DNA from: Planctomycetota bacterium
GTDB taxonomy: Bacteria; Planctomycetota; UBA8742; UBA2392
Reading direction: 5' to 3'
Assembly: GCA_019636195.1 (NCBI GenBank)
Contig: JAHBYA010000001.1
Span: 372,172 to 436,171 of the forward strand
DNA length: 64,000 nucleotides
Under the pieces are notes generated by a model that was not told the origin of the DNA, ran no database searches, and was given only the letters and a program-made list of their open reading frames with translations. Position 1 is the first letter of the stretch; every line of letters starts with the position of its first letter. Made by a program: the position numbers and the translations under genes. Positions 26,283-64,000 of this stretch are shown piece after piece.

Positions 26283-26370
26283 GCGCTGGTTGTACGGTCG
26301 GCCCGGCCCAACCAATAACCAATTCAGCGGCAAAAAGGCAACTGGGTTCGCCGGCAACCCCACCGATCTC

Positions 26371-26485
26371 AACAAAATCCCCGGCAGAAATGCCGGGGGT
26401 GCCGCGCCGCGGCACGCTGTGAGAAGGCGATGGTCGCGGCGCTACGTACCGCGACCCCCTGGTATTTTCAGCCGGGGCTTCTGTT
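26371..26485. repeat. Degenerate REP/BIME-like multi-hairpin element
   Basis: Four hairpins in a row between the carotenoid gene and aspS. They are ccccggca-gaaa-tgccgggg (26379-26398), gtgccgc-gcc-gcggcac (26399-26415), ggtcgcgg...ccgcgacc (26432-26456), and a decayed inverted ccccctgg...gccgggg followed by cttctgtt. Order, loop sequence and flanks (aacaaaa before, cttctgtt after) match the elements at 63192 and 63860. It could also serve as a terminator for aspS-directed or opposing transcripts. Confidence 0.8.
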
Positions 26486-26498
26486 CATTGCCCTGCGA

Positions 26499-62274: not shown

Positions 62275-63114
62275 ATGCCCTTCACCATACCCTTAGACTT
62301 TGACGCCGTTGTGCTGACGCCGCCGGCGCGCGTGGACAGCAGCACCGTGCCCGCGATGCTGGAAGCCGCCGATCGCATCGGCGTGCCGCGCATGCGCGCG
62401 CACCGCATCATGCACATGCACCAGGTTGAGCATATCGACAGCGCCGCCGTCGCAAAGCTGATGGACATCATCGCCACCGCGCGCGACCACGGCAAAGAGT
62501 TCGTGGCCTGCGACCCCCCGCCGATCGTGCACAGCTACCTTGAAATTTACGGCGCGTCGCACCTGCTGGCGGGCCGCGTGCTCAGCAGCGACGAAGACGG
62601 CACCTACAGCAGCGACCTTCTGCCGTTTGTGCCGCCGTTCGTGCCCAACCCGCGCGGGCGGCTTGACATCTATAAGGGCGGCAGGGTGCGCAGCTATGAA
62701 TTTCGCGGCGATGAGCTTGAAGAGATCGGCGCCGTGGATCTTGCGCGCCACCCGCCCAAGGCGCCCACCCGCGCCCACCACATGCGCGTCGCGGACAGCG
62801 GCAGACCCGTTGAGCTTGAGGCCGGCGCGTATGTGATGCTGCGACGCCACCTGTGCGGCTGCGATGCAACCCACAGCACGTTTGCGCAACTGCACCAGCT
62901 TCACCAGTGGTACCGGCGCAAGGGCTTCGACTTCAAGGCCGTGGAGCTGTGGGCCAGCGACGTGCCCTCAGGCATCGTGACCGAGCGCCTGACCTTCCGC
63001 GACCGCATGCACCTGGACCAGTTTCGGACCCTGCTCAAGATCGACGAAAGCTGGAAGGGCATCAGCGAAGCGGCCCACGATCCCGAAGAAGAGTTCTACT
63101 ACGTGTACGCCTGA
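62275..63114 (+). CDS. STAS-domain protein with His/Cys-rich C-terminal region
   Basis: 279 residues; AAGGAG five bases upstream of the ATG supports the start. Residues about 15-110 form a STAS (anti-sigma-factor antagonist-like) fold: HMHQVEHIDSAAVAKLMDII with the conserved D-S and FVACDPPPIVHSYLEIYG. The rest has no known domain. One segment is rich in metal-binding type residues (RRHLCGCDATHSTFAQLHQLHQ, residues about 196-216), and the C-terminus ends EEFYYVYA. It may be a regulatory switch protein, but no partner kinase or sigma factor of that type is nearby. Confidence 0.75.
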   Translation: MPFTIPLDFDAVVLTPPARVDSSTVPAMLEAADRIGVPRMRAHRIMHMHQVEHIDSAAVAKLMDIIATARDHGKEFVACDPPPIVHSYLEIYGASHLLAGRVLSSDEDGTYSSDLLPFVPPFVPNPRGRLDIYKGGRVRSYEFRGDELEEIGAVDLARHPPKAPTRAHHMRVADSGRPVELEAGAYVMLRRHLCGCDATHSTFAQLHQLHQWYRRKGFDFKAVELWASDVPSGIVTERLTFRDRMHLDQFRTLLKIDESWKGISEAAHDPEEEFYYVYA

Positions 63115-63191
63115 CGCCGGCCAAAAGGCGCCGCACAAAAAGGGGTCTGGCCCCGCGCAGCGGCACACCTCATGCGCCTGCGCGTTACCCC

Positions 63192-63321
63192 CGAAACCCC
63201 AACAAAAGCCCCGGCTGAAAAGCCGGGGGGTGCCGCGCAGCGGCACAACGCATACGCGTGCGCACTGCCCGTCGCGGACTTCCGTCCGCGACCCCCGGCA
63301 TTCCTGCCGGGGCTTCTGTTT
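63192..63321. repeat. REP/BIME element 1, upstream of the RAYT gene
   Basis: Four hairpins in a row. They are ccccggct-gaaa-agccgggg (63209-63228), gtgccgc-gca-gcggcac (63230-63246), gtcgcggac-ttcc-gtccgcgac (63271-63292), and ccccggca-ttcc-tgccgggg (63293-63312). The outer two are in opposite orientation, with flanks cgaaaccccaacaaaag on the left and cttctgtttgg on the right (its inverse). This is the bacterial interspersed mosaic element layout: two REPs head to head around a spacer. It ends 38 bases before the transposase start. Confidence 0.88.
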
Positions 63322-63358
63322 GGCGATGGCTTGATGCAATGCCTACACTGTGCTTGCT

Positions 63359-63856
63359 ATGGCCTACAATCGCGTACTTGCGTACCACCTGACCTTCACC
63401 ACATACGGAACTCGCCTGCACGGCGATCCCCGGGGAACGATCATGCGTGGCCGCCAGGGGCGAGCTTCTGCAATTGTTCAGCCTGATCCAGTCCTGCACG
63501 ACGCGATGGCGGACAAGCTCAAGTTTTTGCCGATGATTCTGACCGCCCCGTTGCGGCAAGTCGTGCACCAGACGATTGAGTCGTACTGTCAGTTCAAGAG
63601 CTGGCCGCTGCTTGCGCTGCATGTCCGCACAAACCATGTGCATTGCGTGGTGGGCGCGGCTTGCTCTTCAAGCAAAGTTCTTCACGCGCTGAAGGCAAGG
63701 GCAACCCGCATGCTCAGGGAAGCCGGGCTGATCGCAGCCGGTCGCCCGGTTTGGACAGAGCGCGGTAGTCAGAAGCAACTCTTCACGCAGCAGGCAATCG
63801 ACAATGCGATCAAGTATGTCGACTTGAATCAGGGCAAAAGCCTGCCCGAGCCCTGA
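63359..63856 (+). CDS. REP-associated tyrosine transposase (RAYT, Y1 HUH family)
   Basis: 165 residues. Family motifs are present in order: YHLTFTTYGTRLHGDPRGTI at residues 9-28, SWPLLALHVRTNHVHCVV at 81-98 with the HUH pair His93-Val-His95, KVLHALKARATRMLRE and VWTERGSQKQLF. The catalytic Tyr153 is in AIKYVDLNQG. RAYTs are domesticated relatives of IS200/IS605 transposases that cut and move REP palindromes in single-stranded DNA. The gene is directly flanked by REP elements on both sides (63192-63321 and 63860-64000), as expected. The ATG at 63359 is chosen; a GTG three codons earlier is possible. Confidence 0.93.
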   Translation: MAYNRVLAYHLTFTTYGTRLHGDPRGTIMRGRQGRASAIVQPDPVLHDAMADKLKFLPMILTAPLRQVVHQTIESYCQFKSWPLLALHVRTNHVHCVVGAACSSSKVLHALKARATRMLREAGLIAAGRPVWTERGSQKQLFTQQAIDNAIKYVDLNQGKSLPEP

Positions 63857-63859
63857 GAC

Positions 63860-64000
63860 CGAAACCCCAACAAAAGCCCCGGCTGAAAAGCCGGGGAGTG
63901 CCGCGCAGCGGCACAACGCAAGCGCGTGTGCACTGCCCGTCGCGGACTTCCGTCCGCGACCCCCGAAACCCCAACAAGAGCCCCGGCTGAAAAGCCGGGG
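63860..64000. repeat. REP/BIME element 2, downstream of the RAYT gene (runs off window)
   Basis: It starts three bases after the transposase stop. It repeats element 1 nearly base for base: hairpin ccccggct-gaaa-agccgggg at 63877-63896, gtgccgc hairpin at 63898-63914 and gtcgcggac hairpin at 63939-63960. A second direct copy of the first unit then begins (cgaaaccccaacaagagcc) with its hairpin at 63981-64000. So units can also be tandem, not only head to head. The window ends inside it. Confidence 0.88.

Follow-up and report, generated by a model that had tools for sequence, protein, structure and literature searches.

The ends of the insertion sequence (IS) IS200 are read on one strand. Where repetitive extragenic palindromes (REPs) carry a GTAG foot, the REP-associated tyrosine transposase (RAYT) binds the folded single-stranded REP, on one strand only, and then cuts and rejoins it; its contacts lie in the foot plus either a stem mismatch or the loop bases, according to passages of two papers (PMC8266576, PMC6006769). 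As set out in part of the former, RAYT-REP recognition and the origin of REP families have been tested in few systems, all of them GTAG-footed (PMC8266576). Main-text passages of Quentin et al. 2018 (Table 1, PMC6006769) also define a TnpA_Y1 class 3 by the signature NHVH, W[TA] and Y-4x-Q, with a profile of 155 aa and 10 proteins, or 24 once the class was enlarged (11 from Planctomycetes, 6 from Acidobacteria and 5 from Proteobacteria). In these passages class-3 genes are flanked by several multicopy hairpins with a CnGA foot, which were left as 'atypical' and in need of manual inspection (PMC6006769). Here we describe such a gene and its hairpins at the right end of a 64,000-nt stretch of the genome of an uncultured Planctomycetota bacterium (the window, which is the frame for all coordinates unless a contig is named; its genome is G000, and base 64000 is the last base of contig C1). 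We consider it likely that this locus is a REPtron, that is, an intact class-3 TnpA_Y1 gene amid multi-hairpin REP doublets, whose enzyme is predicted from its sequence to bind, cut and rejoin a GNNA-tipped single-stranded DNA hairpin and so to spread the doublets. At the sequence level this interpretation is supported by the gene, which is intact and has its catalytic residues, by repeat copies both beside it and dispersed through the genome, and by one hairpin plan that recurs at many class-3 loci.

The gene encodes the 165-residue HUH protein that the initial annotation had recognized by H93, H95 and Tyr153. The open reading frame (ORF) is intact, with an ATG at its first position and an alternative GTG start at 63350, and these three residues, together with W132 and Q158, are invariant in an alignment of 56 homologues. 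The protein matches Pfam Y1_Tnp (31.2 bits, 2.7e-7) but does not reach the cut-offs of the NCBIfam models for IS200/IS605 (NF033573; 26.1 bits against 55) or for class 2 TnpA_REP/RAYT proteins (NF047646, REP_Tyr; 23.6 bits against 80). An AlphaFold model (pLDDT 88.8) matches the ISDra2, IS200 and IS608 transposases and, at lower Z, the E. coli RAYT-REP complex 4er8, in agreement with the RAYT-type HUH/Y1 identity first assigned. The motifs RTNHVH, VWT and YVDLNQ correspond to NHVH, W[TA] and Y-4x-Q. Since this class-3 signature was published in 2018, the RAYT subgroup, which had been thought possibly undescribed, was already on record for Planctomycetes with atypical flanking hairpins (main-text passages of PMC6006769); by its motifs the protein belongs to TnpA_Y1 class 3 and the protein subgroup is not new. 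The Y...NP motif of class 2 is absent from the window protein, whereas class-2 proteins of related genomes have NP. Its relatives (the best 80 of 360 were named) come mainly from Planctomycetota and Acidobacteriota metagenome-assembled genomes, and taxonomy, motifs and atypical multicopy hairpins are all as described for the class-3 REPtrons in those passages (PMC6006769). The ratio of nonsynonymous to synonymous substitution rates (dN/dS) was 0.07-0.17 in 7/7 close pairs tested, some of them with saturated dS; these values indicate purifying selection on the RAYT gene among relatives. The gene was found once in the genome (an assembly in 26 contigs that breaks at the repeat), the sole other hit being a 40% identical paralogue. 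The genome also has a class-2 type RAYT (G000:C6:115681-116085), which scores 84.8 bits and lies above the NF047646 cut-off.

Two near-identical multi-hairpin elements flank the gene, as first reported, and they are 96% identical over 107 nt. The hairpin named A is CCCCGGCT-GAAA-AGCCGGGG, and its 8-bp stem and GAAA tetraloop recur exactly at the three sites listed in Table 1. Its 21-base pattern gives five matches in the window with up to three mismatches, against a shuffle mean of 0.02. The flanking elements were correctly described; overlooked were the inverted hairpin A' that closes the left element, a decayed fragment just upstream of it and a dispersed copy near 26370. The arms of the upstream doublet (63198-63229 and 63292-63323) show 84% complementarity over 32 nt. 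Folded as single-stranded DNA, this element reaches -50.4 kcal/mol against a shuffle mean of -31.1 (z -6.4), and none of 200 shuffles equals it. The clear hairpins are A, B, D and A', and the spacer between B and D forms a weak hairpin at best. The inverted A ... A' pair occurs as one unit here and at several dispersed places, which is the arrangement that defines paired REPs (REPIN or bacterial interspersed mosaic element, BIME) and which had been proposed for this locus. To the right of the gene, the unit that was noticed starting at the edge of the window belongs to a real tandem A-B-D array with a 104-nt period, which runs to the final base of C1.

Table 1 Features of the RAYT locus and its repeats (window coordinates)
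Feature	Position	Strand	Basis or remark
Class-3 TnpA_Y1 (RAYT-type) HUH gene for a 165-aa protein, a predicted single-strand nuclease	63359..63856	+	Pfam Y1_Tnp, invariant residues, fold
Decayed repeat-unit fragment (B/spacer part)	63124..63190	+	67-nt direct repeat, 70% / 67% identity to two intact units
Upstream REP doublet (REPIN), A-B-spacer-D-A'	63191..63323	+	Inverted ends and single-stranded DNA fold
REP hairpin A, 8-bp stem, + strand GAAA loop	63209..63228	+	5' foot ACAAAAG, 63202-63208
Hairpin B, 7-bp stem, GCA loop	63230..63246	+	
Hairpin D, - strand GGAA loop, 9-bp stem	63271..63292	-	
REP hairpin A' (A inverted), - strand GGAA loop	63293..63312	-	- strand foot AACAGAAG (CAGA = CnGA), 63313-63320
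Downstream repeat unit A-B-spacer-D, 104-nt period	63859..63965	+	96% identical to 63191-63297 over 107 nt
REP hairpin A, copy 2	63877..63896	+	
REP hairpin A, copy 3, end of contig C1	63981..64000	+	
Dispersed A-B-D-A' doublet, A and A' altered	26368..26486	+	G000:C1:398541-398630 plus A' foot 398642-398655

A genome-wide search for the hairpin, which the initial annotation had put forward as a check, found it beyond the locus. BLAST of 142 bases of the repeat unit returned 45 places at E<=10 and 16 at E<1e-4, four of the latter at the ends of contigs C1 and C24 and 12 dispersed, one of them inside the window. Searched exactly, the foot-plus-half-stem ACARAAGCCCCGGC turns up 17 times in the genome; a tolerance of one mismatch raises the number of matches to 36, with the reversed control at 15. 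Compared with the longest-ORF set, about seven of the 12 dispersed copies lie clearly outside it. Contig C1 (436 kb) contains 35 perfect 8-bp hairpins with 4-nt loops, 21 of which read GNNA on one strand, and 16 of these 21 are noncoding despite an ORF set that covers 93% of the contig. The signal is weaker in 400 kb of the related genome G014, where 27/58 such tetraloop hairpins are GNNA on one strand and 16/27 are noncoding. The hairpin is multicopy and lineage-specific, as had been supposed; two genomes of the same genus gave no match to the full repeat unit at E<=0.001. It is not peculiar to the window's gene, however, since in a further genus of its family RAYTs with 53-57% identity to it are also flanked by CCCCGGC/GAAA hairpins. 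Several of the dispersed copies L015, L016, L017, L021 and L022 have an added small-hairpin module between D and A', and three of them have about 50 nt upstream of A in common. These extra modules and the common upstream stretch point to mosaic growth of the element.

We then compared 116 class-3-like loci, all distinct, of which 42 belong to the bacterial family of the window and the other 74 do not. The family loci are 47 matches minus five partial ones; they are drawn from 14 genomes and are related to one another. Outside the family 18 of 23 matches were used, and among the named loci, which were the best 80 of 360, there were 24 duplicates. Y-4x-Q is present at 97/116 loci, the matched stretch of 18 others ends before the motif, and one (G057) is without the Q. 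Because one earlier scan had imposed GNNA, we ran a scan that admits any loop of 3-7 nt, with two inner and four outer pairs and a hairpin required on both sides of the gene; the foot counts and commonest loops given below come from the GNNA-imposed two-sided set. The any-loop scan found two-sided hairpins at 30/42 family loci and 34/74 others, against 1/2000 and 3/2000 in random-segment controls. Tetraloops read GNNA on one strand in 37/37 cases in the family and 40/53 outside it. By locus, a two-sided GNNA tetraloop hairpin is present at 29/42 and 28/74, with 32 and 30 distinct hairpin sequences, respectively. The family also gave 16 six-nt-loop readings, 12 of which are tetraloop hairpins read one pair wider. 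When only perfect 8-bp stems were admitted, 23/42 family loci remained two-sided, with 31/31 tetraloops GNNA and two six-nt-loop hairpins. The commonest loops are GTAA, GCAA, GTGA, GAAA and GGTA.

As a control, the same scan was applied to 30 class-2 loci (NF047646), the best match in each of 30 related genomes. Twelve of the 30 were two-sided, 1/6 of their tetraloops was GNNA and several feet were GTAG or GTGG. In G004 and G014 the foot of the class-2 hairpin reads GGTGG and its loop ATCC, whereas the class-3 loci of the same genomes mostly obey the GNNA plan. This difference suggests that the GNNA loop follows the RAYT class rather than the genome.

When the loop is used to fix the strand, the foot at 28 family loci has A at -2 in 28/28 and G at -1 in 26/28, and the CnGA positions are occupied less regularly (C at -5 in 10/28, G at -3 in 13/28). 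Outside the family the foot is a clear CnGA, with C at -5 in 19/28, G at -3 in 27/28 and A at -2 in 22/28. The stems at 56 loci are either fully paired or have two mismatches two pairs below the loop, with 8/56 intermediate. Among 25 fully mismatched stems, 24 have G·A at position 4, and position 3 is A·G in 18 and C·A in 7. The plan that many class-3 loci share consists of a 5' foot that ends in AG, or of CnGA followed by A or G, and four outer base pairs; inside these follow two positions that either pair or have a double mismatch of the G·A type, then two more base pairs and the GNNA loop. No GNNA loop or 4-2-2 stem rule was seen in the main-text passages of PMC6006769, and we found no paper in the open-licence PMC literature that gives a loop rule for class-3 REPs. 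Compared with class 3 as described in those passages, the window's family has a looser foot, reduced to an almost constant AG, and its stems are mostly fully paired (PMC6006769). Judging by these comparisons, the plan that many class-3 REPs share and its form in this family, with a relaxed foot and mostly paired stems, look new.

The hairpin type is also ordered along the protein tree. Over 69 rows the paired or mismatched state changes 8 times, against a mean of 20.8 and a minimum of 12 in 300 shuffles, and at the 56 loci stem similarity correlates with protein identity (Mantel r 0.345, 0/2000 permutations). The tree neighbours of the window enzyme carry CCCCGGC- or CCCCGCC-type hairpins. Several raw associations between residues and stem type were seen, for example at position 135 (H, p 1.6e-7); we do not claim residue-level covariation of enzyme and stem type, as the raw associations had, among the positions listed, no clear support in independent pairs. 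RAYTs from distinct parts of the tree (G006:C29/C30, G002:C29, G014:C1, G015:C370 and G081:C193) are flanked by a near-identical mismatched hairpin, CCCGGAGC-GNAA-GCGACGGG, and this recurrence could reflect either convergence or the adoption of one REP family by a different enzyme.

The conserved loop, foot and mismatch sit where the RAYTs of GTAG systems make contact, and by this analogy we infer that the class-3 enzyme binds and cuts its hairpin by the same mechanism. The enzyme would bind single-stranded DNA folded into the GNNA-tipped hairpin. The foot and the loop-near half may provide strand-specific recognition, and the variable stem may give each enzyme its own REP family. Tyr153 would make the nick, and cutting and rejoining of the hairpin would spread the doublets between genes. 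More speculatively, the 104-nt array could have arisen by repeated copying or by slippage at the common A hairpin.

Several observations weigh against reading the locus as a REPtron. The copy number of the repeat is modest, and five of the 12 dispersed copies are ambiguous with respect to the ORF set. In the any-loop scan 12/42 family loci and 40/74 others had no two-sided hairpin, 13/53 tetraloops outside the family are not GNNA, and 4/16 of the family's six-nt-loop readings come from further hairpins of the element, which do not read GNNA. Random segments are mostly coding, so that they understate chance occurrence between genes and the class-2 loci are the fairer control; locus counts are also non-independent, the loci being related. 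Of the window's own feet, that of A' is CAGA and obeys CnGA, but that of A is CAAA and does not. The Mantel and tree results could also be expected from plain descent, and a descent-corrected test on six pairs at supported branches gave no clearly supported covariation of enzyme residues with the stem among the positions listed, the best being position 72 (median p 0.25, range 0.03-1).

Among other explanations, the enzyme may have been domesticated for another single-strand DNA task, with the REPs left as immobile relics or serving to regulate the enzyme's own expression. The low REP copy number and the purifying selection on the gene would suit such a history. We nevertheless regard it as unlikely, as the array units are 96-97% identical, suggesting recent multiplication, the repeat unit has no match in the same-genus genomes and two different REPtrons occupy one nuoF-nuoG junction in related genomes (see below). 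It is very unlikely that the hairpins are simply outward-facing transcription terminators or stabilizers of mRNA ends that happen to adjoin the gene. The three A copies and A' do look terminator-like on their outward strands, with outward T-tracts (5 sites against 1.5 expected in the region), and the dispersed copies that lie clearly between ORFs are compatible with this function. However, at class-3 loci TTTT follows within 8 nt of the hairpin in only 2/149 cases on the GNNA strand and 4/149 on the other, and this function would leave unexplained the strand-specific GNNA loops, the fixed foot, the RAYT-specific stems and the inverted pair that encloses the gene. As TTTT is rare after class-3 hairpins, termination is at most a side-role, and such a role need not exclude that the hairpins are REPs. 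That the locus is an ordinary IS200/IS605-type IS, whose gene moves itself and whose left and right ends are the flanking hairpins, is highly improbable: HUH/Y1 fold, catalytic residues and hairpin recognition are alike, but a single gene copy was found (in an incomplete assembly), the protein has Y-4x-Q and scores below the family cut-off, the flanking hairpins are mostly inverted pairs (upstream + or downstream -, 113/150) and hairpins also lie far from the gene.

Relatives of the window RAYT number up to seven in one genome (G014), and among within-genome pairs with two-sided hairpins the stems differ in 32/33, the remaining pair, in G006, having identical arms. The second class-3 gene of the window's genome, the 40% identical paralogue on contig C20, is flanked by GCCCATCGC-GTAA-GCGATGG hairpins, and its hairpin has 17 genome matches with up to three mismatches (two overlap at one site) against one for the control. 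This RAYT, with CCCATCGC hairpins, lies at the junction of NuoF- and NuoG-like genes (G000:C20:340573-341204; L010). In G014 and G001 (L066; L075) the same junction holds a RAYT of another clade with CCCCGGCC hairpins, and the flanks are 77-90% identical. This reads as one nuoF-nuoG site used by two different REPtrons. In the window's genome the nuoF-like frame enters the REP hairpin (L010, 1380-1430), its stop TAA lying within the GTAA loop, and in G014 the frame ends just ahead of the hairpin.

The surroundings of the window's locus were compared with relatives through the gene upstream of it (62275-63114), which has homologues in 15/16 relatives. Using tblastn, the RAYT had no hit in the stretches around these homologues in 15 relatives (up to about 1.5 kb of flank each), and neither did the first two genes of contig C24. 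Contig C24 starts within an array of the same kind as that at the end of C1; as its first two genes had no hit beside the upstream-gene homologues, the join of C1 to C24 is a candidate only. A search of the repeat against Rfam gave sub-threshold matches only: on its minus strand anti-hemB scored 23.7 bits (63201-63278) and 23.0 bits (63869-63946) against a cut-off of 49.5, and these matches were not used.

The class 2 TnpA_REP/RAYT systems of E. coli, Pseudomonas and Stenotrophomonas, with GTAG REPs, resemble the window locus in their HUH/Y1 enzyme, in having their own two-sided REP family and in inverted REP pairs (REPIN/BIME), and differ in the Y...NP motif and a GT[AG]G foot, the window feet being ACAAAAG and ACAGAAG. 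The GTAG- and CGTC-tagged REP super-families, as described in part of a 2013 paper (PMC3733652), likewise consist of short paired intergenic palindromes, but neither tag is found at the foot of A or A' (PMC3733652); the letters CGTC do occur at the start of hairpin D, mostly within its stem. We tentatively propose, as a possibility that we hold a little less firmly than its opposite, that the REPs of class 3, together with their enzymes, constitute a third superfamily next to these two. Its constant parts would be the GNNA loop, the two loop-near pairs and the AG foot, and the stem, whether paired or with a G·A double mismatch, would serve as an exchangeable address for each RAYT, with up to seven enzyme-address pairs in one planctomycete genome. 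The plan implies that many class-3 REPs can be found by computer, and it makes available dozens of natural enzyme-hairpin pairs, several per genome, for tests of specificity. Fully paired and mismatched stems are seen to replace each other inside one class. If the third-superfamily reading is true, these systems would constitute a natural code for programmable recognition of single-stranded DNA.
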